In this document: positions 8,125 to 35,803 of the stretch, one piece after another
Layout: each line of letters starts with the position of its first letter
How positions within the stretch are numbered: position 1 is the stretch's first letter
Virus record (IMG/VR): IMGVR_UViG_3300009124_000043
Location: 1-35,803 of that record
Origin: a virus
DNA: 35,803 bases
Reading direction: 5' to 3' (one strand)
Translations under genes and position numbers: made by a program
Notes under the pieces: generated by a model
Database searches by the model: none
What the model saw: the letters and a program-made list of their open reading frames with translations, nothing else
Told to the model about the DNA's origin: nothing

Positions 8125-10368
8125 ATGTCTACTGGAATAACTAGTAGACTTATTTCTGTACCCGCGCAGAATAGTGCTACTTGGACACAACGTACAGCGG
8201 ATATATCAGCTTTTGTTGGCTGTAAGGCCAGATTGGTTGTTCTTTACCAATCTGGCTCTTCTTTTACTGGTGATATTCAATTAGATGATTTTAATATTGG
8301 CGGAAATAGTTTTACTGACTTTTCTGTAAGTCAAGGATTTCAAACTCAAAATGCTTCTGATGATTCTCAGTTAACAAATGTAGATGATATTCAATCAGAT
8401 TATGACGCTGTAACATTTCAAGCAGTTGGCACAAGTACAAGTGCTTATGGCTTTTTTGTAAGAGATGCTTCTGGAACTCCATCTGGCTCAACAGGTCTTA
8501 CATCTGGCAATACTGGGTCTTATTATTTATATGCTGAAACTAGCAGTTCAGGTAGCAACAATGATTTTTGGTTACGTTCTCCAGAAGTTACAATAAATAA
8601 TGGAACATTAAGTTTTTATACTGCTCAAAGTGGTGCTACTTGTGGTCCCATATACGCATATTTAGAAATTACAGAGGGTAATACTGGTCAGACTGGATGG
8701 GGTAGAGGAACATGGTCCCAAGGAGAATGGGGCAATCCTCTTCCAATTACCGTAACTGGTGTATCTGGAACGGGTCAAATTGGCTCTGTTACTGTATCTG
8801 GTGCGAGTGATACTCCTGTTACTGGACTATCTGCGACAGGAAACGTTGGTTCTGTAACAATTGTAGCAGAGGCTAATATTTCTCCATCAGGATTGAGTGC
8901 CACAGGCCAAGTTGGATCTGTAGTTGCTTCAATACCTGAAAGTGTATCTGTCACAGGATTATCTTCAACAGGACAAGTTGGCTCTGTAACCGCATCAATT
9001 TCACAAACTGTTTCAGTTACAGGTGTTTCTGGAACAGGAAGTGTTGGGTCTGTTACCACAACAGCAGACGCAAATATTTCTGCTACAGGATTGTCTTCAA
9101 CAGGAAGCGTTGGATCAGTAACCACTAATGCAGAATCAAACGTTTCTGTCACAGGTATATCTGGCACTGGTGAAGTTGGAAGTGCGTCTGTAGCTCAAGG
9201 CATAACAATAAATGTTACAGGGCTATCCGCTACTGGAAATGTTGGGTCTGCTACCATAACGGCAGGCGCAAATGTTTCAGTCACTGGATCGTCTGGAACT
9301 GGACAAATTGGAACATCTATTGTTGATGCTCAAGCTAATGTTCCCACAACTGGGTTATCGGCTACAGGATCTGTTGGCAGTGTAATTGTTCATGAAAATG
9401 AAGTCGTAAATGTAACTGGCTCAGAAGGTACTGGAGAAGTTGGGTCAGTTACGGTTATTGGGGATGCAAATGTTTCTGTCACTGGCTTGTCATCTACTGG
9501 ATCAGTTGGCTTAGTTACTGTTATCGCGGAAGCGAATACTTCAGTCACTGGATTATCTGGAACTGGACAAATTGGAACAGTTAATGTTGATGCTCAAGCC
9601 AATGTTCCCGCAACTGGATTATCAGCCACAGGATCTGTTGGTTCAGTTACAGTAAATGCTGCATCAAATGTCTCTGTAACTGGTCTTTCAGCCACGGGTC
9701 AAGTTGGCGATGTAATTGTTCATGAAAACGAAGTTGTAAATGTAACTGGTCTTTCAGCTACAGGACAAGTTGGAAGTGTAATCGTTCATGAAAATGAAGT
9801 CGTAAATGTAACTGGCTTAGAGGCTACTGGATCTGTTGGATCAGTAACTATAATTGCAAAAGCAAATACCTCAGTTACCGGGTTGTCTGGAACTGGTGAA
9901 GTCGGAATAGCCGCTGCTGACGCTCAAGCAAATGTTCCTGTCACGGGATTATCAGCTACGGGATCAGTAGGTTCTGTAACAGTTGTTGCAGAGGCAAATG
10001 TTTCCGTAACGGGGCTTGAGGCTACAGGGGGTGTGAGTTCGGTTTCTGTAACAGCAGATGCTAATATTTCTGCCACAGGCGTTTCTGGTACAGGTCAGGT
10101 TGGGTCAGTTGTCGTTTCTCTTCCTGTAGATGTTGATGTAACGGGTGTCTCTGCAACAAGTCAGGTGGGATCGGTTACAGTCACGGCAGCATCAAATGTG
10201 TTTCCAGACGGAGTTTCTGGGACAGGAAAAACATCACAGGTTCTTGTTTGGGGTCCTATTGTTCCAAATCAAGATCCGAGTTATACTCCAATAACACCAT
10301 CTTCTACCCCTTCTTGGAGTGATGAATCACCATCTCAAACTCCAAATTGGGATGACATAGCAGCATAG
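8125..10368 (+). CDS. Long repeat-built tail fibre or appendage protein
   Basis: The 747-residue product has three parts. Residues 1 to about 190 look like a beta-sandwich (jelly-roll or MAM-like), with NDFWLRSPEVTINNGTLSFY as a clue. A bridge with WGRGTWSQGEWG follows at about 194-205. Residues 210-693 are 22 tandem repeats of exactly 22 residues on the theme VTGLSATGSVGSV, with a degenerate 23rd. The tail is Pro/Ser/Trp-rich (TPSWSDESPSQTPNWDD). The repeats probably build a beta-solenoid or stacked fibre shaft. Its place ahead of an S74 fibre and a carbohydrate-binding-like protein supports a role in host contact. The repeat DNA is very similar between units and can gain or lose copies by recombination. 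Confidence 0.7.
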   Translation: MSTGITSRLISVPAQNSATWTQRTADISAFVGCKARLVVLYQSGSSFTGDIQLDDFNIGGNSFTDFSVSQGFQTQNASDDSQLTNVDDIQSDYDAVTFQAVGTSTSAYGFFVRDASGTPSGSTGLTSGNTGSYYLYAETSSSGSNNDFWLRSPEVTINNGTLSFYTAQSGATCGPIYAYLEITEGNTGQTGWGRGTWSQGEWGNPLPITVTGVSGTGQIGSVTVSGASDTPVTGLSATGNVGSVTIVAEANISPSGLSATGQVGSVVASIPESVSVTGLSSTGQVGSVTASISQTVSVTGVSGTGSVGSVTTTADANISATGLSSTGSVGSVTTNAESNVSVTGISGTGEVGSASVAQGITINVTGLSATGNVGSATITAGANVSVTGSSGTGQIGTSIVDAQANVPTTGLSATGSVGSVIVHENEVVNVTGSEGTGEVGSVTVIGDANVSVTGLSSTGSVGLVTVIAEANTSVTGLSGTGQIGTVNVDAQANVPATGLSATGSVGSVTVNAASNVSVTGLSATGQVGDVIVHENEVVNVTGLSATGQVGSVIVHENEVVNVTGLEATGSVGSVTIIAKANTSVTGLSGTGEVGIAAADAQANVPVTGLSATGSVGSVTVVAEANVSVTGLEATGGVSSVSVTADANISATGVSGTGQVGSVVVSLPVDVDVTGVSATSQVGSVTVTAASNVFPDGVSGTGKTSQVLVWGPIVPNQDPSYTPITPSSTPSWSDESPSQTPNWDDIAA
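8752..10203 (+). repeat. 22 tandem 66-bp units in the fibre gene
   Basis: Twenty-two units of exactly 66 bp follow each other with no insertion or deletion. Each encodes a 22-residue unit starting with [VAPT][TS]G and containing TG-x-[VI]G. Some neighbouring units repeat as blocks: units 9-10, 13-14 and 18-19 all read DAQANVP followed by TGLSATGSVGSV, and units 10, 15 and 16 share the ending HENEVVN. Confidence 0.92.
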
Positions 10369-14708: not shown

Positions 14709-14912
14709 ATGACTTTAGCTATGGAAAAAATTCTTGCTTGGAAGATAATGCCGCGTTTCATGATGTTAGTTATGACCATCATGTACATCCGCGTTATTGA
14801 ATGGGGAATGAGCTTGCCGGATTTATCAACGCAGCAATCCGCGATGATTTCAGTGGTCAGTGGTGCCATGACAGGGACGATAGCCGTGTGGCTGGGGAGC
14901 GAGAAAAAATGA
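14709..14912 (+). CDS. Two-helix holin-like membrane protein
   Basis: The 67-residue product has two membrane segments: about 13-31 (MPRFMMLVMTIMYIRVIEW) and about 45-62 (MISVVSGAMTGTIAVWLG). A short polar loop (LPDLSTQQS) lies between them, and a charged tail, SEKK, ends it. Size, topology and position directly before a 3-TM holin and an endolysin-like peptidase are as expected for a holin or antiholin. It begins right after a stop codon and its TGA overlaps the next ATG. The sequence looks like a conserved marine phage holin type, although I cannot name the family. Confidence 0.7.
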   Translation: MTLAMEKILAWKIMPRFMMLVMTIMYIRVIEWGMSLPDLSTQQSAMISVVSGAMTGTIAVWLGSEKK

Positions 14913-22982: not shown

Positions 22983-25856
22983 ATGGGTCAAGTATCGGTC
23001 AACACAAAATACGGACCAATTGACTTTAAAATTACTGGCGATGCCCCTACAATTGGCGAACGCATGGAAATTGATAAAGTCATTGCAAATCCTCGTGCTT
23101 ATTTGCCTCAAGAAATAATTTCTGATTTTGATAAAAAACAAAAAGGTTTTGATCCTCAGTTTGACGTTGAAACGGGTATTAAAGACCTTGGACTGCGCCG
23201 TGCCTTGAGTTTAGCTGATGATGCGGAAGAAGAAGAAGCTGCTCTTGCAATGAAGGGATTAAAGCCAGAAGATTACATAAGAGACAATCGTGGTCGTCTT
23301 GCTTTGACGCCATCTGGTGCAGCGAAGTTTGGTGTAGAAACAGACAAGAATGTTCTGATTGATGAATCAGGCTTTAGTCGCGCTGATCTAGCGGATTTAG
23401 CAGGCATGGGACCTGAAGTCGGGGGTGCAATCGCAGGTGCGATTGGTGGTCAAGCTGTAATACCTATTCCAATTTTGGGTGCTGTAATTGGTGCCGCAGT
23501 AGGGGGTGGCGGTGGTAATTTGCTTGAAGAAGGCATTGAAGCCGCTATGGGTATATCAAGGCAATCTGCGGCAGAAATAGCCAGAGACACTGCTATAGAA
23601 GCTGGTATAGCTGCTGCGGGTGAAGGTATAGTTGGCCTTATCGGTAAGTCTTTTGGAGTTGTAGGGCGCGGTTTAGGACCACAGAGACTAACGCAAGATC
23701 AAGCAAAAACAATTAAAGAGAGCTTAGAAATGGGCGTTGCTCCAGCGCCGGGTCTTGTTGGCGCTCCTGCTCTTATTGCTCGGGCTGTTGCTACAGAGGA
23801 GCAGATATTTAAAGGCTCTGCACGTACTCGCTCAAACAATGAAGCAATTCAAACCGCGTTAGATGATCTTCGTGCAAGAGCGGGAACCAGTGACCCAGAT
23901 GCTCTAGGCCGAACAATTATAGCGGCTGTGCAGCAAGGCGATGAAACTTTGGGCCGCGCTGTTGATAATGCAGGTGTTGCCATACTTCGTGGCATGGAAA
24001 GCACTGCTGATGATTTGGGCCGTGCAGCGACCAAGGATTTGCAACTTGATCAAGATTTGTATGGTGCATTTCGTGCCGCCTATGAAAACTTTGACAACAT
24101 AGCGCAGGCAAAATGGACCCGCATCAATCGTGCAATGGAATCACCAATTGGAGACTCTAGGTTCATCCCAACAGCAGACATTGCAAAAAAAGCACGAGAT
24201 ATGAGAAAGAGCTATAGACCCACTCAAGCAGGGACAACTGGCGGGACTATGGAATCAATGCTTGAGCGTATAGGCTTGTTAGGCAAAAAATCTTCTTTTT
24301 CTGAGCTTTATAACGCTCGCAAAAGTTTAACCGATTTACTTAGGAAAAATGCTCGCTCTCAAACAATTCAACGCGAAGGTCGTGTTTTTCTTGATGCTTT
24401 GGACCGCAGATTAGAACTTCTGACAGATCCAAAAGCTATTGCATCATTTGCTGCTAATTCGGGTAGAAACATTGATGGTGCAGCATTAAGGCAAATTTCT
24501 GATGCTGCATCTGATTTGCGCGGTGCGCGTGAGTTTTACGAAAAAGGCATGAGATACTTTGATGAAGTAGGATCTGCTGCATCTATTCGTGCCATTCGGG
24601 AAGAACTTAAAAATGGTGTAGTTCCGAACGTTGAAGAAACTGTCTTCAAACTCGTAAAGCCAAACAAGCCAAGGTATTTGATCGCTGCTAAAACTTTGTT
24701 TGATGAGTTTGGAGGAAGAGGTTCTTTTGAGACTTTTCGTCAACGTATGGCATCACAATGGCTGAGAAATTCATTAGAGAAGTCTGTAAACTCAGCACGT
24801 CCTGATAAGTTTAGCGCGTCTGCATTTAATAAAGATGTTAAAGCATTAGGCACAACATTAGATCAATTGTTCGGGCAACAAGCAAATGCAATTCGAAAGC
24901 TCGCCAATGAGATTGATTCTGTAAGTCTTCGTAATGTTGATCAAAGTGTAATTGATCGTGTAATTGCATCTGGCGCAGATGAAAGTTCAGTTGGCTTGTT
25001 GCGTAATCTTAAAGAAGCTCAAAAGGAAGCGTCAGAATTTGCGCGTGACAGAGCAATCAACGCATTTCGTCGTGAGGGTCTTAGCCCACAAGAGGCGGCT
25101 GATTTGATTGTTAATGGCTCAACAAAGCCAACCACAATAACCAAGATCATGAAGTATTATGATAACTCTCCTGAAGCTATGCAGCAATTGCGTGGCACAT
25201 ATATGGAGCATATCATTGGTGACTTTGGTGAGAGCTTCTTAGTTGAACCAAAACAGCTAAAGGCTTTTGGAACAAGACTCATAAAAGAATATGACTCTGG
25301 CAAACTTGGCGCAGTTTTTGGCGAAGAGATGGCAGACGAAATGGCTAAGTTTGGTCGTGTTCTTAACTTTAATGCCCGTACTGTCGAGGGCGGTGGTCTT
25401 GTTGCGGCTAACATTGCGGCAAGTCCAGTTCAAAACCTTGGCAAGTTGTTGCGCTACAGCATAATTGGTCGCGTCTTTTCTAGTCCATTGTTTTATAAAA
25501 ACTTATCAAAACGTGTAAATGCAATGACAGGTGAAGGTGTATCTAGGCCAGAAGCTGTAGGTAGAATTATATCGCAGGCGCTATCTTCTGCTGTTGCTCA
25601 AACAAGTGCGCAGTCTATCGAAGAGGGCGTATCGGAGACGACAAAACAAAGCAGAGCTTACCTTGATTCAATGGCACAACGACAGCAGCGCCCGGCATCT
25701 CAAACTATAACCCGAACAAATATTCCGGTTCCTGAAATACCCCCGGTACAAACACCTGCTGTTTCTGATGTTTCTAATATTCGTCAACGCGCAAGAGAAA
25801 ACCCAGCAGTGGCTGCAACACTACTGGGCGGTCTTGGAAGCGCGGGGTTGCTTTAA
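22983..25856 (+). CDS. Large internal virion (ejection) protein
   Basis: At 957 residues this is the largest gene of the window. An N-terminal domain (1-130) is followed by a glycine-zipper hydrophobic region (GPEVGGAIAGAIGGQAVIPI, about 143-183) that could span a membrane. The remaining 700 residues are helical, with charge-rich coils and a Pro/Gln-rich end. No lysozyme or transglycosylase motif was found. Size, hydrophobic zipper and position at the end of the virion block fit a podovirus ejection protein such as the largest T7 internal protein, although sequence similarity to T7 is not claimed. Its stop overlaps the end of the minus-strand regulator by 3 bp (25853-25856). Confidence 0.65.
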   Translation: MGQVSVNTKYGPIDFKITGDAPTIGERMEIDKVIANPRAYLPQEIISDFDKKQKGFDPQFDVETGIKDLGLRRALSLADDAEEEEAALAMKGLKPEDYIRDNRGRLALTPSGAAKFGVETDKNVLIDESGFSRADLADLAGMGPEVGGAIAGAIGGQAVIPIPILGAVIGAAVGGGGGNLLEEGIEAAMGISRQSAAEIARDTAIEAGIAAAGEGIVGLIGKSFGVVGRGLGPQRLTQDQAKTIKESLEMGVAPAPGLVGAPALIARAVATEEQIFKGSARTRSNNEAIQTALDDLRARAGTSDPDALGRTIIAAVQQGDETLGRAVDNAGVAILRGMESTADDLGRAATKDLQLDQDLYGAFRAAYENFDNIAQAKWTRINRAMESPIGDSRFIPTADIAKKARDMRKSYRPTQAGTTGGTMESMLERIGLLGKKSSFSELYNARKSLTDLLRKNARSQTIQREGRVFLDALDRRLELLTDPKAIASFAANSGRNIDGAALRQISDAASDLRGAREFYEKGMRYFDEVGSAASIRAIREELKNGVVPNVEETVFKLVKPNKPRYLIAAKTLFDEFGGRGSFETFRQRMASQWLRNSLEKSVNSARPDKFSASAFNKDVKALGTTLDQLFGQQANAIRKLANEIDSVSLRNVDQSVIDRVIASGADESSVGLLRNLKEAQKEASEFARDRAINAFRREGLSPQEAADLIVNGSTKPTTITKIMKYYDNSPEAMQQLRGTYMEHIIGDFGESFLVEPKQLKAFGTRLIKEYDSGKLGAVFGEEMADEMAKFGRVLNFNARTVEGGGLVAANIAASPVQNLGKLLRYSIIGRVFSSPLFYKNLSKRVNAMTGEGVSRPEAVGRIISQALSSAVAQTSAQSIEEGVSETTKQSRAYLDSMAQRQQRPASQTITRTNIPVPEIPPVQTPAVSDVSNIRQRARENPAVAATLLGGLGSAGLL

Positions 25857-26077
25857 TCTTCTAATACAGAAGCAATGCCACCCAAGTTGTGACGCCTGTC
25901 ATAACGAGATGCCACCTTTGCTTGCACATCGTCATAAGCATCATCAATCATGCGCGACAACTGGCGTCCAATAGCACGATCTTCATGATCCGCTATTTTT
26001 ACTAATTTGTCGTAAGCATCTATTGAAACACCTACAGATTTGTATTTTACTGGATTCGGCATGGAGGACTTTCCCAT
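25853..26077 (-). CDS. Ribbon-helix-helix transcription regulator-like protein
   Basis: The 74-residue product on the minus strand has the ribbon-helix-helix layout: a beta strand KSVGVSI (13-19), a helix DAYDKLVKIADHEDR (20-34), then a turn and helix AIGRQLSRMIDDAYDDV. Such small dimers bind short inverted DNA repeats. It is the only minus-strand gene, lying tail-to-tail with the last virion gene and head-to-head with the DUF1064-like gene, whose start is 2 bp away. It may switch between early and late transcription. A second start at 26062 (Met6) is possible and would leave a longer leader from the embedded promoter. Confidence 0.75.
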   Translation of the reverse strand: MGKSSMPNPVKYKSVGVSIDAYDKLVKIADHEDRAIGRQLSRMIDDAYDDVQAKVASRYDRRHNLGGIASVLED

Positions 26078-26079
26078 AA

Positions 26080-26454
26080 ATGACGTTTCCTACTGTATAT
26101 AATCCCAAGCGGCGTGGGTCAAGACCCAAGTATGGTAATAAGAAAGTAACTGTTGATGGCATCAAGTTTGATTCCAAGTGGGAGTCACAGCGTTACATGT
26201 ACCTCAAGTCGCTCGAACGCGCAGATCAGGTCAAGGATCTTGAGCTACAAGTGCGCTATAATATAGCGGTCAACGGCGAGAAGATTTGCGCTTACGTTGC
26301 AGACTTTCGATACCAAAAGCAAAACAAAGACGGCGACTGGTACGAAGTTGTCGAAGATGCCAAGGGCGTTGAAACCCCTGAATTTAAACTGAAAAAGAAA
26401 TTAATGAAAGCCGTTCACGGCATAGAAATATTTTTATCTAAAAAAAGTCGTTGA
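26080..26454 (+). CDS. DUF1064-like, PD-(D/E)XK nuclease-type protein
   Basis: The 124-residue product has KYGNKKVTVDGIKFDSKWES (17-36), YVADFRY (72-78) and VVEDAKG (90-96), the signature of the DUF1064 phage family. Residues Glu35, Asp75 and Asp93-x-Lys95 fit a PD-(D/E)XK nuclease core, such as that of Holliday-junction or restriction-type endonucleases. It may resolve or trim DNA during replication or packaging. The start is 2 bp from the divergent regulator gene, with GGAGG at 26063-26067 (12-base gap) as its ribosome site. A strong -35-like TTGACA overlaps its stop codon. Confidence 0.8.
   Translation: MTFPTVYNPKRRGSRPKYGNKKVTVDGIKFDSKWESQRYMYLKSLERADQVKDLELQVRYNIAVNGEKICAYVADFRYQKQNKDGDWYEVVEDAKGVETPEFKLKKKLMKAVHGIEIFLSKKSR
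26094..26122 (-). promoter_or_regulatory. Candidate promoter for the minus-strand regulator
   Basis: On the minus strand TTGACC (26122-26117), a 17-bp spacer and TATACA (26099-26094) lie inside the first codons of the divergent DUF1064-like gene. Transcription would begin near 26087, only about 10 bases before the ATG at 26077. Confidence 0.5.
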
Positions 26455-26479
26455 CATGTCCCAAGCTATATGGGATAGG
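26451..26479 (+). promoter_or_regulatory. Candidate early promoter with consensus -35
   Basis: A perfect TTGACA lies at 26451-26456. At 17 bp spacing the -10 is GATAGG (26474-26479), which is poor. The region also has TCCCA-N7-TGGGA, a small inverted repeat that could be an operator. It is followed by a short leader and AAAGGAA before the ATG at 26516. Confidence 0.4.
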
Positions 26480-26515
26480 TAAGGCTCTAGTAATTTAAAG
26501 CGGAAAGGAATCGAC

Positions 26516-26914
26516 ATGAATAGTCGTGAACTGTTCGAGCGTCGAGAGGAACTCAAGCACGTTATCAGTGAATTGCGTGATGAGTTGAAAGACGTTGAAC
26601 AACAACTCCATGATACATTTTTTACCCAAGCGCGTGATGCTTTACGCGCAGACGGTAAAGACTTTGGCACCACATATATTGTTGCAGGCAATCGTAAGCT
26701 GAAGGCTACGGTGCGCAAGAAAGTCGTGTGGGACCAAGACGAACTTGGCTGCGTCTTAGAGGCAATGCCAGAGGAAGACGCACGTCATTACGGTAAGCTG
26801 ACACTTGCTGTTGACGAGCGTAAATACACAGCGGCACCACCCGCTATTCGCAACCTTCTTGAGCCATGTCGGACAGTTGAAGTCGGTGGCTTTACAATTG
26901 AGGAATCAGACTAA
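26516..26914 (+). CDS. Conserved coiled-coil protein of unknown function, early region
   Basis: The 132-residue product has an N-terminal coiled coil (RREELKHVISELRDELKDVE, about 9-28). A beta/alpha part follows with TTYIVAGNRKLKATVRKKVV and KLTLAVDERKYTAAPPAIRN. I recall similar proteins at the start of early operons of pelagic phages but cannot name a function. It precedes the two NGNHR paralogues and overlaps the first by one base. It could be a DNA-binding or Gam-like protein; this is a guess only. Confidence 0.6.
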   Translation: MNSRELFERREELKHVISELRDELKDVEQQLHDTFFTQARDALRADGKDFGTTYIVAGNRKLKATVRKKVVWDQDELGCVLEAMPEEDARHYGKLTLAVDERKYTAAPPAIRNLLEPCRTVEVGGFTIEESD

Positions 26915-27840
26915 TGAACTTTACTAGCAAGTTAGACGTCAAGCTGCAAGAAATGATGAATGCTTCTGATCCAATTGATCGAAAGCAAATTCTATTTAGT
27001 GCAGAAATCACCGCTGAAGAAATGAAGAAAATCAGCGAAATGAACTACAAAGGCAATCGTGATTTGCACCGCCCCACATTTCGCAAATATGTCAGGGCAA
27101 TGAATCTTAATCGTTGGGTTTTAACTCCCGAACCTTTGGTCTTTGTCAAACAAGGAACAGAATGGGTTATGATTAATGGCAATCATAGATCAAATGCTCA
27201 AATTGAAACGGGAACAACAAATTGTTATTCCATTGCAATTGTTGATTCCATCGACAGGTATAAATACTTGGATCAAGGAAAGGTAAGAACCAACGCAGAT
27301 ATTATTGGGGCGCACATCAATATTGTTCAGCCAATTCAATATCTTCTTCGTGCTTCTTCTTTCGTTTCACATCCAATGCCAGAAGATGTGGAAAACGTCC
27401 TGAGAAGTCGAATTGGTGAATTGCTTTCTGAAGTTGAATATGAAATCAAGCCACCGCGCAAAAGCGGAAGCATTTGGAAACAAACAGCGTTCAAAGCTGC
27501 GTTTGTAATGGCAATCATGACAGATCGCGTTAGCTATGAAAATGCTTATGATGTTTATGATTCACTTTCTCATGGTGATCTAAAAGAATGGCCTGATGTT
27601 TTCGTGCAGCTTTATCGGCAGGTCATGGAAAGTTCTATTTCTGTCAATAGAACAGGTCAATCTTTGGACAATGATTATTTCATGCGCGGAATGTTTGCGT
27701 TTGAACATCATAGCAGCGAAGGGAAAACCTTGGCGATTCATAACAACTTTAGAAACTCTGTCAAAGAAGACGTGTTTGAAGTCATGAAGCAGTTTACGCC
27801 AATCGAAGAAAAGGCGGCAGCGTATGAGGAGGCAAAGTGA
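26914..27840 (+). CDS. ParB/DGQHR-like domain protein, copy 1
   Basis: The 308-residue product carries NRWVLTPEPLVF (66-77), WVMINGNHRSNAQIETG (84-100, NGNHR at 88-92) and LDQGKVR (119-125). This order (strand, N/D-G-x-H-R, then D-x-G-x-x-R) is the core of the ParB/DGQHR-like fold used by ParB-type proteins, DndB and related phage proteins. The C-terminal half is helical with EIKPPRKSG and WPDVFVQLYRQVM. The gene starts on a TAATG junction and ends on a TGATG junction with a second copy. The domain may bind nucleotide or DNA; the biological role is unknown. A DNA-modification or anti-restriction function is a hypothesis. Confidence 0.7.
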   Translation: MNFTSKLDVKLQEMMNASDPIDRKQILFSAEITAEEMKKISEMNYKGNRDLHRPTFRKYVRAMNLNRWVLTPEPLVFVKQGTEWVMINGNHRSNAQIETGTTNCYSIAIVDSIDRYKYLDQGKVRTNADIIGAHINIVQPIQYLLRASSFVSHPMPEDVENVLRSRIGELLSEVEYEIKPPRKSGSIWKQTAFKAAFVMAIMTDRVSYENAYDVYDSLSHGDLKEWPDVFVQLYRQVMESSISVNRTGQSLDNDYFMRGMFAFEHHSSEGKTLAIHNNFRNSVKEDVFEVMKQFTPIEEKAAAYEEAK

Positions 27841-28751
27841 TGAATATTTTTGAAAAACTTGATCTTAAATGGCAAGAAATGCACAACACCGATTGCCCTT
27901 TGGACAGTAAGCAGTTGACCTTTAATTCTCTTCTTTCTTCAGAAGACGCAAAAAAACTGTGTGAGTTCAATTACAGTGGCAACAGAGACTTAAACAATCA
28001 AAACTATAGGCGATTTGTTAGGTCGATGAATTTAAGCAGGTGGGACTTAACCCCAGAGCCGTTAGTGTTTACTAAATATGATGGCTCTTGGGTTCTTATC
28101 AACGGAAACCACCGTTTAAATGCACAAATTGAAACCGGAAAACAAATTGCTTATGCGGTGTCAATTGTCAGAGAGCTTGAAATTTTTAAAATTCTTGATC
28201 AAGGAAAGGCACGTTCTATCCATGAAATCCTTAACATTGAAAAACAAGTAAGCGGTCCAATCGCTTATCTTTTCAGGTCTGCAACTTTTGTAAGAGATCC
28301 CTCGCATGAAGATGTTCATAAGGTCATTAATACTAAAGTTGGAAATCTCTTAATTGAAATTGAACAAGAGATTAAGCCACCTAAAAGTGCAAGAAGTCCT
28401 TGGAAATCACCTTCCTTTAGAGCGGCATATGTTATGGCGATTGAGTTGGGTTTAATTGAACATGAAAAGGCTCGTGAATTGTACAATGTAATCTGCCATT
28501 CAAACATTAAAAAATGGCCTGATGTATTTGTTTCCATGCACAAACAAATCATGGAAAAAACCATTGGGATCGAAACAGGTGGCAGGACCCTTGATAACAC
28601 AAATTTTATGAGAGGGATGTATGCCTTTGCAAATTCTGATTGGGAAGGTGATCATATGTCTGTGCATCAATCTTTTAGGAAAAAACTAAAAGAAATGGTT
28701 CCAAATTATATGAAAAAATACACGTTAGAAGAAGAAAGGATGGTGTCATAA
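27840..28751 (+). CDS. ParB/DGQHR-like domain protein, copy 2
   Basis: Starting at the ATG of the TGATG junction (27840), the product has 303 residues. It is colinear with copy 1: KLD at 6-8, TPEPLVF at 71-77, NGNHR at 88-92 and LDQGKAR at 119-125 have identical positions. By hand I count 54 identities in the first 96 residues. The C-terminal half keeps IKPPK, FRAAYVMAIELGL, WPDVFV and MRGMYAF. Third positions are visibly AT-richer than in copy 1. A GTG at 27837 would add one residue and break the exact alignment, so ATG is preferred. Tandem duplication followed by divergence, or acquisition of a related copy, would explain the pair. Confidence 0.75.
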   Translation: MNIFEKLDLKWQEMHNTDCPLDSKQLTFNSLLSSEDAKKLCEFNYSGNRDLNNQNYRRFVRSMNLSRWDLTPEPLVFTKYDGSWVLINGNHRLNAQIETGKQIAYAVSIVRELEIFKILDQGKARSIHEILNIEKQVSGPIAYLFRSATFVRDPSHEDVHKVINTKVGNLLIEIEQEIKPPKSARSPWKSPSFRAAYVMAIELGLIEHEKARELYNVICHSNIKKWPDVFVSMHKQIMEKTIGIETGGRTLDNTNFMRGMYAFANSDWEGDHMSVHQSFRKKLKEMVPNYMKKYTLEEERMVS

Positions 28752-35754: not shown

Positions 35755-35783
35755 TTGCAATGTATGGGAATACTTGGTATAAA
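35755..35783 (+). promoter_or_regulatory. Strong sigma70-type promoter at the right end
   Basis: TTGCAA (35755-35760), an exact 17-bp spacer and TATAAA (35778-35783) directly follow the terminator. AGGAAAAAGGA at the window end would be the ribosome site of the next gene. TGGGA (35765-35769) and TCCCA (35784-35788) flank the -10 as an inverted repeat, a possible operator. Confidence 0.7.
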
Positions 35784-35803
35784 TCCCAATCTAGGAAAAA
35801 GGA

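Follow-up and report, generated by a model that had tools for sequence, protein, structure and literature searches.

A small gene on the minus strand of an uncultured marine phage fragment (IMG/VR record IMGVR_UViG_3300009124_000043, positions 1-35,803; hereafter the window, 35,803 nt in full) is wedged between two plus-strand genes, and its best promoter lies within the coding sequence of the divergent neighbor. A sequence-only reading of this locus regarded the product as a ribbon-helix-helix (RHH) regulator that is well placed to be the early/late switch of the phage. This arrangement raises the question of which promoters such a protein would control, and whether its control would extend past the two genes that enclose it.

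Organization of the Locus

The minus-strand gene is real, and its description as the only one on that strand holds for the 35.8-kb record alone, as longer relatives carry a minus-strand arm. The start codons of the regulator and the divergent gene had been placed 2 bp apart, which is correct for the longest open reading frame (ORF). Codon 6 is the likelier start, since it is Met in 28 of 28 aligned homologs (GTG or ATG at this position in a distant clade) and the upstream ATG falls out of frame where the spacing differs in relatives, e.g., L025, L027, and L099 (read by hand). Translation thus probably begins at 26062, 17 nt from the nuclease start (Table 1). At the other end, the stop codon of the regulator (25853-25855) overlaps that of the upstream gene (25854-25856), as had been noted. 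The latter had also been called the last virion gene, but its 957-aa product has no PHROG match at E ≤ 0.1, and Pfam gives nothing above cut-off either. The divergent gene was rightly recognized as nuclease-like, since it encodes a DUF1064/Holliday-junction-resolvase-type protein (phrog_190, E 1.1e-35; PF06356, E 4.6e-20, with 72.6 bits against a cut-off of 24.7). A blastn search with the junction gave no match.

Table 1. Features of the regulator locus and of other motif-bearing sites in the window.
Feature	Position	Strand	Details
Regulator, longest ORF	25853..26077	minus	74 aa; as given in the sequence-only reading
Regulator gene from probable true start	25853..26062	minus	69-aa predicted RHH protein; starts at Met6 of the longest ORF
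Putative terminator hairpin of the regulator transcript	25801..25829	minus	within the 3′ end of the convergent gene
Back-to-back Shine-Dalgarno sequences	26063..26075		in the 17-nt gap; read by hand
Shine-Dalgarno of nuclease	26063-26067	plus	GGAGG
Shine-Dalgarno of regulator	26075-26069	minus	GGGAAAG
Divergent nuclease	26080..26454	plus	DUF1064/Holliday-junction-resolvase type; codons 5-15 contain P_rhh
P_rhh, regulator promoter	26094..26122	minus	-35 TTGACC 26122-26117; 17-nt spacer; -10 TATACA 26099-26094
Putative operator in P_rhh	26104..26118		CCCA-N7-TGGG; half-sites frozen, center mostly variable
P_nxt, next-operon promoter	26451..26479	plus	TTGACA 26451-26456; N17; weak -10 GATAGG 26474-26479
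Second putative operator, in P_nxt	26460..26474		CCCA-N7-TGGG
First gene behind P_nxt	26516..26914	plus	phrog_2480, function not known
Third motif-bearing promoter, window end	35755..35794	plus	TTGCAA-N17-TATAAA; read by eye
Motif parts of third promoter	35765; 35775; 35784-35788; 35791-35794		TGGGA; TGGTA; TCCCA; CTAG

The minus-strand regulator gene occupies the same place in 79 of 80 loci, these being the best 80 of 582 from a search with the nuclease. One homolog was located on a contig that is binned with a Rhodobacteraceae MAG. A terminator-like hairpin follows it in 28 of 38 relatives (38 of the 39 non-redundant relatives defined below), compared to 1.1 expected from mononucleotide shuffles. 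Because this hairpin stands right behind the gene, the regulator seems to be transcribed as a separate unit, the two ends of which lie within the coding sequences of the neighbors. The plus-strand genes that follow the phrog_2480 gene include Sak4-type, helicase, exonuclease, and primase/helicase genes, and those behind P_nxt would make up one operon.

Two other roles for the gene were considered and rejected. A toxin-antitoxin pair does not fit, as the regulator's transcription unit holds no toxin-like partner and the divergent gene is a phage resolvase. A lysogeny repressor of an integrating phage was rejected on the absence of a Phage_integrase match from 11 records, which are possibly incomplete; the search covered that one recombinase profile.

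A Promoter Conserved Within the Nuclease Gene

The TTGACC-17-TATACA promoter previously pointed out in the nuclease coding start is present, and positions 26096-26108 and 26115-26123 are invariant in all 39 non-redundant relatives. The RNA start of this sigma-70-type promoter is expected near 26087 on the minus strand. The sequence of P_rhh is under strong purifying selection at synonymous sites of the nuclease gene, the signature by which the sequence-only reading had suggested the promoter be checked. Synonymous divergence is 0.066 over nuclease codons 4-16, against a mean of 0.445 for later 13-codon windows (lowest 0.356), and none of 20,000 random 13-codon sets was equally conserved. The 39 sequences have nuclease genes at most 97% identical and were drawn from 81 distinct junctions after L055, L127, and L133 were dropped; many were fetched with a peptide spanning nuclease codons 1-8, which selects residues and not synonymous codons. 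P_rhh is accepted as real on the strength of this conservation, not of scan counts, as a consensus promoter scan of the window did not list it and found no promoter excess (6 found, 6.0 expected).

It had further been supposed that binding near the start codons would control both divergent genes. This was not borne out, as the conserved repeat belongs to the promoter of the regulator itself, and the second copy comes after the nuclease, in the next-operon promoter (26451-26479). In addition, the synonymous-divergence scan revealed no conserved plus-strand nuclease promoter within the regulator gene, the first windows of which are only slightly lowered (0.33-0.40, compared to a mean of 0.47).

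Recurrence of the TGGGA Half-Site

Operator-like repeats sit in the regulator's own promoter, as expected of an autoregulated repressor of the Arc/F55 type. All 10 longer records have the strict CCCA-N7-TGGG form at P_rhh, and three of them (G001, G002, and G009) also have it at P_nxt, the TTGACA of which overlaps the nuclease stop codon. In other relatives, inspected by eye, the half-sites of P_nxt are farther apart (L025) or imperfect, or the copy is displaced (L088). G009 has one further strict inverted copy, next to a cargo gene, and G004, G005, G006, and G008 account for four more matches. The third motif-bearing promoter of the window resembles sites at G002 22946 and G003 24679. With one mismatch allowed, CCCA-N7-TGGG shows no excess in the window (8 found, 7.9 expected), and one extra strict copy lies at 8717 inside a coding gene.

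In most of the longer relatives, TGGGA is also seen in direct pairs, 10 bp apart, that span the -10 element of other small genes' promoters, and promoter-like sites with TGGGA or TCCCA precede small genes of either strand. In the 75-nt regions ahead of 669 called genes from 10 records, which are related so that the counts are not independent, direct half-site pairs occur 16 times at period 10 and six times at period 21, and 0-2 times at every other period. Inverted pairs in the same regions number seven at N7, six each at N16 and N17, four at N10, and three at N11, with 0-1 at the remaining spacings. Genes were called by a simple longest-ORF script in 10 of 11 records; G008, covered for 40,000 of its 42,019 bases, repeats G004 and was omitted. 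Two of the 16 period-10 pairs are unlike promoters (G004 6079- and G006 2999-). Inside the first 75 nt of genes there are six period-10 pairs, equal to period 12, and no direct pairs were found upstream of 175 genes in two control phages, the base composition of which was unmatched.

Sites combining TTGAC with TGGG as direct-repeat promoters number 21 distinct cases in 16 records, and 19 of them have 13 or 14 nt between the two elements (9-14 allowed). At this spacing a T/A-rich hexamer falls 17 nt from the -35 element, and the direct-repeat promoters carry good -35/-10 elements; the two sites with 10-nt spacing are unlike promoters. In three records, raw scan counts are below or near random expectation (2 vs. 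2.7 in the window, 4 vs. 3.5 in G003, and 2 vs. 2.5 in G007), and the strict direct-repeat promoter is absent from four of eight records scanned (G031, G032, G033, and G035). Cargo genes inserted beside the nuclease also carry the motif, as judged by eye from 14 cargo promoters, some lacking their first bases, that include close relatives; five cargo proteins gave no Pfam match. The presence of the same half-site at other small-gene promoters in relatives lends support to the proposed early/late switch, with the repeats shared by several promoters but not in every record, and with "early" read from gene position.

TTGACC...TGGGATT is also present in the regulator promoter of a second clade, in which the protein is about 40% identical. 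By eye, all 26 distinct upstream stretches given for 36 loci of this clade contain TTGACC with TGGGATT(A/G)TAT; a stricter pattern matched 20 of the 26, which include close relatives. P_rhh of this clade has no CCCA half, and the TGGGA half alone is kept. Searching with the promoter pattern alone found 10 contigs of at least 29 kb, all of which carry the regulator (six previously known for it and four newly shown). Among 20 tested pattern-found contigs, 16 that are 11-22 kb long are without the regulator; the terminase of the family is present on 11 of the 16, and these appear to be pieces from a different region of the genome. Whole-genome statements here rest on IMG/VR records, the ends of which are not proven. 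Motif and regulator are associated within one phage family, yet it does not follow that one is bound by the other.

The Regulator Protein

Weak matches suggest that the regulator is an RHH protein, and the assignment made in the sequence-only reading stays below threshold. RHH_7 of Pfam was matched at E 0.14-0.16 by four of 28 homologs (0.16 for the window protein), far below curated cut-offs, and two distant homologs matched RHH_5 at E 0.034 and MatP_C at E 0.073, also below cut-offs. No homolog reached a significant RHH profile match in Pfam (E 0.03-0.16), and unrelated families scored equally or better (TraH_VirB8-like, 0.0071; HetR_C, 0.011). Against PDB sequences, a profile of the family matched HP0222 (E 0.11) and the antitoxin Rv0298 (E 0.87), both of them RHH proteins, among nine matches with E ≤ 10, the best being a designed protein (E 0.04). 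A deeper profile retained HP0222 as the only one of the two (E 0.21) among four matches. When profile A5 was compared to 69 proteins of phage P22, Mnt and Arc, RHH proteins as well, ranked second and third behind gtrA (P about 0.02, not significant). Among PHROGs, the matches were weak and confined to families without an assigned function (phrog_5118 for 11 of 26, best E 0.0025).

Neither of two AlphaFold monomer models reproduces the RHH fold, as both contain helices and no beta strand. The first is a single long helix (19-65), and the second has helices at 14-27 and 29-59 with a helical N-terminal segment (pLDDT 74). Foldseek with the predicted structure gave no match at E ≤ 0.001, and the best VIA structure match was to a MerR-type regulator (Z 6.0). 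RHH entries are absent among the structure matches listed, which excludes nothing. Both clades show little or no variation over much of the predicted DNA-reading strand, and the regulator, probably dimeric, would bind DNA through this strand.

Proposed Mechanism and Alternatives

With moderate confidence, the regulator is proposed to be an autoregulated repressor of phage early promoters, a small and probably dimeric RHH DNA-binding protein. Early in infection, host polymerase would fire the motif-bearing promoters. The regulator would bind pairs of half-sites, either inverted (N7) or direct with a 10-bp period, lying on one helix face over the spacer and the -10 element and thereby blocking RNA polymerase. 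As the regulator accumulates, the early set would be shut off, its own gene included, and late genes would keep their transcription; expression of the nuclease would probably depend on read-through out of the late operon.

A wider claim, to which we give somewhat less than an even chance, is that this protein represents an undescribed family of phage master repressors, in which one small protein from a nested unit commands a genome-wide early regulon via TGGGA pairs on one helical face across the -10 element, and interchangeable cargo genes join by bringing the same promoter. The term "undescribed" rests wholly on two kinds of search. tblastn of the regulator and of a distant homolog found no match in 50,697 annotated phage records, and no RHH operator in early genes of lytic phages was found in open-licence literature, where the two papers on RHH repressors and viral early promoters dealt with archaeal viruses (PMC9608457 and PMC11065993). 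By word search, a study of 80 pelagiphage genomes makes no mention of ribbon-helix-helix, promoter, or Holliday (PMC9599517).

The strongest competing explanation, though an unlikely one, is that the TGGGA repeats belong to another DNA-binding protein, encoded by the host or by a different early gene of the phage, and that the regulator is merely one of its targets. Co-occurrence does not separate a regulator from a target, and a scan of 19 small proteins of G001 revealed HTH_28 matches in two (best E 4.6e-4) and an HTH_8 match in one (E 3.1e-5). Against this stand the location of the best-conserved motif copy ahead of the regulator gene, the near invariance of much of the protein's predicted DNA-reading strand across both clades, its presence in every motif-found contig of at least 29 kb, and the frequency of autoregulation among RHH repressors (PMC5569661).

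It is improbable that the regulator is instead an activator or dual regulator of early or middle promoters. AvtR, an RHH protein of an archaeal virus, can act as activator and as repressor (PMC5569661), and P_nxt of the window has a weak -10 element. However, the sites lie between the -35 and -10 elements and across the latter, where a bound protein normally occludes polymerase, and the direct-repeat promoters have good -35 and -10 elements of their own. Slightly less probable still is a purely local circuit, in which the regulator controls itself and the level of the adjacent operon and the other TGGGA promoters share an early-promoter sequence with no operator role. The constancy of the strict inverted form at P_rhh relative to P_nxt fits such a circuit, yet a second TGGGA 10 bp on, past the -10 element, is superfluous for sigma-70, and period 10 nonetheless dominates. 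Finally, lower synonymous change is common at gene starts and the promoter is predicted from sequence, but it is very improbable that the conservation reflects translation initiation or a structure in the nuclease mRNA, since codons 2-3 vary (0.56 and 0.36) whereas codons 6-9 and 12-14 are frozen, the start of the control gene nxt is not frozen (0.37 over codons 4-16, by which a translation-start effect was rejected), Rfam has no match in 25600-27000, and the frozen letters spell a -35/-10 pair resembling those of intergenic promoters.

Comparison With Known Systems

The proposed repressor resembles Arc and Mnt of the P22 immI region, small phage repressors with operators inside promoter elements; in the P22 record, O-arc (14798-14818) lies within a promoter (14793-14821). 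It differs in that the window gene is isolated, with late genes on one side and replication genes on the other, in that P22 carries an integrase whereas the 11 records searched here have no Phage_integrase match, and in its proposed targets, which are many early promoters as opposed to one antirepressor promoter. No significant sequence similarity links them.

In its proposed behavior, the regulator also resembles F55 of the archaeal virus SSV1. F55 is an RHH repressor of early genes; the short sequence to which it binds is present in a number of early promoters as well as in that of F55 itself (PMC9608457), and the regulator of the window is proposed to act likewise. F55 acts on archaeal promoters with an 11-nt consensus, ATAGATAGAGT, and has a role in the carrier state and UV induction (PMC9608457). 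SvtR of SIRV1, another RHH protein, represses its own gene and other viral promoters, but its highest-affinity target is a structural gene with a site distal to the promoter (PMC5569661), unlike the window phage, where the sites lie within promoters of other genes. In archaeal viruses, a conserved early-promoter motif marks early accessory genes and has been used for finding anti-defense genes (PMC11065993). The motif-bearing cargo genes beside the nuclease are similar in this respect, with an anti-defense role of the cargo being hypothetical.

Implications for the Phage Family

In this phage family, selection would maintain both the promoter and the putative terminator of a regulator within neighboring coding sequences. 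If the proposed repression holds true, an uncultured marine phage family would gain a defined early regulon together with its likely regulator, and a DNA signature would list early genes of unknown function from sequence alone. Should the master-repressor reading also be correct, the operator would become a search key for host-takeover and anti-defense genes in uncultured marine phages.

Gene neighbourhood and start of the regulator

The virus record (35,803 bases) is probably a fragment of a longer genome, since contigs of relatives reach 55-60 kb. From left to right it carries head and tail genes, a gene for a 957-aa protein without a family match found, the minus-strand regulator gene, a DUF1064/Holliday-junction-resolvase-type nuclease gene, and replication-type genes. 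Those right of the nuclease include Sak4-type, helicase, exonuclease, and primase/helicase genes, as well as two neighbouring genes for proteins of the unknown family phrog_5931, an apparent tandem duplication. The regulator gene overlaps the 957-aa gene at their stop codons. Homologous loci were drawn from a regulator query (54 loci) and a nuclease query (best 80 of 582); in 79 of these best 80, the regulator lies divergently upstream of the nuclease, and in the exception (L096) the contig end cuts the nuclease. The sole homologue found in the genome collection (L240, WTIQ01000492.1) sits on a contig that was binned into a Rhodobacteraceae MAG, a weak hint of the host.

The sequence-only reading placed the two start codons 2 bp apart, which holds for the longest regulator ORF but not for the likely start. 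In relatives whose spacing differs, the ATG that opens this longest ORF falls in another frame (by hand), while 28 of 28 homologues have Met at codon 6 and a second regulator clade has GTG or ATG there; thus, 26062 is taken as the probable start. The gap to the nuclease then becomes 17 nt, with both ribosome-binding sites back to back inside it.

Features of the window, of homologous loci (L) and of longer relatives' records (G)
Record	Position	Strand	Feature
Window	8717		Third strict CCCA-N7-TGGG, within a coding gene
Window	25790-25856		C-terminal end of 957-aa protein
Window	25853-26062	-	Regulator gene (longest ORF 25853-26077)
Window	26080-26454	+	Nuclease gene
Window	26094-26122	-	P_rhh, putative regulator promoter
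Window	26096-26108, 26115-26123	+	Invariant blocks
Window	26451-26479	+	P_nxt, putative promoter of next operon
Window	26460-26474		Second CCCA-N7-TGGG
Window	26486-26492		TCTAG(T/A)
Window	26516-26914	+	Next gene
Window	26914-27840, 27837-28751		phrog_5931 proteins
Window	35755-35794		Third motif copy, right end
L074	6393-6740		Cargo gene
G022:C1	47543-49020		Broken terminase match
G001	957-, 2156+, 54793-		Promoter-like sites (examples)
G002	27486-, 29485-, 30809+		Promoter-like sites (examples)
G004	5120-, 6376+		Promoter-like sites (examples)
G005	1395-, 3730+, 4863+		Promoter-like sites (examples)
G010	28765-, 30144+		Promoter-like sites (examples)
G001	54912	+	MG(I/Q)xG(T/M)Q-like frame
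G002	27611	+	MG(I/Q)xG(T/M)Q-like frame
G003	27352	+	MG(I/Q)xG(T/M)Q-like frame
G005	4741	-	MG(I/Q)xG(T/M)Q-like frame
G006	3072	-	MG(I/Q)xG(T/M)Q-like frame

A putative promoter within the nuclease gene

Two blocks inside the nuclease codons, reading CTTGACCCA and TTGGGATTATATA on the minus strand, are invariant in 39/39 non-redundant relatives, and five of the six bases separating them vary. Across these relatives, synonymous divergence is 0.066 in nuclease codons 4-16, against a mean of 0.445 (minimum 0.356) in later 13-codon windows and 0.37 at the start of the next gene, used as a control; 0 of 20,000 random 13-codon sets were as low. Conservation at synonymous sites had been proposed as a check on the promoter predicted here, and it bears the prediction out: judged by these values, the putative promoter is under selection. 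A plain consensus promoter scan of the window did not flag P_rhh.

A terminator-like hairpin occurs 3' of the regulator in 28 of 38 relatives (1.1 expected from mononucleotide shuffles), an excess that may be due in part to conserved coding at the 3' end of the convergent gene. Because a selected promoter lies on one side and this hairpin on the other, the regulator seems to form a separate transcription unit, embedded in the coding ends of both neighbours. The hairpin is located at the C-terminal end of the 957-aa protein, whose residues there (TLLGGLGSAGLL) also occur in an L074 protein; the best matched stretch of the L074 counterpart is only 26% identical.

Half-sites at P_rhh, P_nxt and cargo genes

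The frozen half-sites (TGGGA/TCCCA) in the P_rhh spacer form CCCA-N7-TGGG, and a second copy lies in the gap after the nuclease, beside TTGACA. With one mismatch allowed, the window holds 8 such matches against 7.9 expected; therefore, this form is not striking by itself. Among ten longer relatives, the strict form is found at P_rhh in all ten and at P_nxt in three (G001, G002, and G009). G009 has an additional copy beside a cargo gene, and four further strict matches occur in G004, G005, G006, and G008. At P_nxt of other relatives (by eye), the spacing is wider (L025), the half-sites are imperfect, or the copy is shifted (L088).

Cargo genes, extra minus-strand genes between the nuclease and the next gene, are present at 14 of 81 distinct junctions, and each of the 14 has a promoter of the TTGACAT type with one or more half-sites (by eye). 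Pfam gave no match for five cargo proteins. These genes are interchangeable, most share a common leader (by eye), and at their junctions a terminator-like G-run/C-run replaces the usual nuclease 3' end.

A candidate regulon

A search of 11 family records for TTGAC with TGGG after it revealed promoter-like sites ahead of small genes on both strands. In most, TTGACa and TGGGA precede a TATA-like -10, which is followed by another TGGGA, TCTAG, a ribosome-binding site, and ATG. By raw count, eight records have more matches than expected at random (e.g., G001, 10 vs 3.1; G002, 8 vs 1.8), without clear excess in the window (2 vs 2.7), G003 (4 vs 3.5), or G007 (2 vs 2.5). Two control phages of unmatched base composition (HTVC027P and 023Pt_psg01; terminase 60% identical to that of G001) have one site each, neither ahead of a gene.

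In the 75 nt 5' of 669 called genes from 10 records, direct TGGG pairs number 16 at period 10, 6 at period 21, and 0-2 at any other period; inverted pairs number 7 at N7, 6 each at N16 and N17, 4 at N10, and 3 at N11. The first 75 nt within those genes contain six direct pairs each at periods 10 and 12. In the two controls, 175 genes were covered, and no direct pair lies upstream of any of them. Whole-record counts, coding sequence included, give the same peaks in blunter form (period 10, 54; period 12, 24; period 6, 22; inverted N7, 19). TTGAC and TGGG are 13 or 14 nt apart in 19 of 21 distinct direct-repeat sites (16 records scanned), which therefore positions a T/A-rich hexamer 17 nt from the -35.

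The window's third motif copy has TTGCAA instead of TTGACA (by eye). About 30-35 nt past TTGAC, close to where the RNA is expected to start, the window and most candidate early promoters of relatives carry TCTAG(T/A), which is absent from P_rhh. In five records, a small frame with an MG(I/Q)xG(T/M)Q-like start (by hand) lies near a left-arm promoter, has its start codon inside a 10-bp TGGG repeat and could be a leaderless early gene.

Co-occurrence and a second clade

As sole query of the viral collection, the promoter pattern retrieved 103 stretches, including ten contigs at least 29 kb long, all of which carry the regulator (six known beforehand, the other four confirmed). The regulator was not found in 16 shorter pattern-matched contigs tested, 11 of which have the terminase of the window's phage family, as expected of fragments from another genome part. 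In two of the four newly confirmed contigs the regulator is only about 40% identical, and a query from one of these yielded 67 loci. In this second clade, TTGACC...TGGGATT(A/G)TAT precedes the regulator in 26/26 distinct stretches listed, a stricter promoter pattern matches 20 of the 26, and P_rhh is without the CCCA half. TGGGA-type promoters also occur elsewhere in second-clade records G012 and G020. The strict direct-repeat pattern gave no match in four of eight records searched (G031, G032, G033, and G035); when G031 and G032 were scanned with a looser pattern, both showed P_rhh, and G031 alone had TGGG-CTAG sites (two). The terminase match of G022:C1 is broken over frames with internal stops, which may stem from sequencing errors or decay.

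Identity and role of the regulator

The regulator is a probable rather than a proven ribbon-helix-helix (RHH) protein. Its weak family matches recur to RHH families (RHH_7, RHH_5, and MatP_C), and unrelated families score equally or better (TraH_VirB8-like, 0.0071; HetR_C, 0.011). A search of the PDB with its profile places HP0222 (E 0.11) and Rv0298 (E 0.87) behind a designed protein (E 0.04). A deeper profile ranks Mnt second and Arc third among 69 P22 proteins, after a 9-column match to gtrA. AlphaFold (monomer, shallow alignments) gave helices and no strand, and structure searches with the models returned no significant match.

Repression is favoured as the mode of action, since half-sites sit in the spacer and -10 and one copy would be autoregulatory. 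Arc/Mnt of P22 is a known parallel, the P22 record placing O-arc within the promoter; the archaeal-virus RHH proteins F55 and SvtR offer others (PMC9608457; PMC5569661). Immunity would be the alternative to lytic feedback shut-off of early genes, but no Phage_integrase match was found in the 11 family records, so that shut-off fits better. For HTVC027P, a virion relative, all early expressed genes are reported to have unknown functions (PMC12753301).

The predicted regulator gene is thus conserved and nested, and probably autoregulated. Conservation and spacing support the putative promoter and repeats well; the identity of the binding protein, the direction of control, and its timing are inferred, with the TGGGA promoters forming a candidate early regulon.
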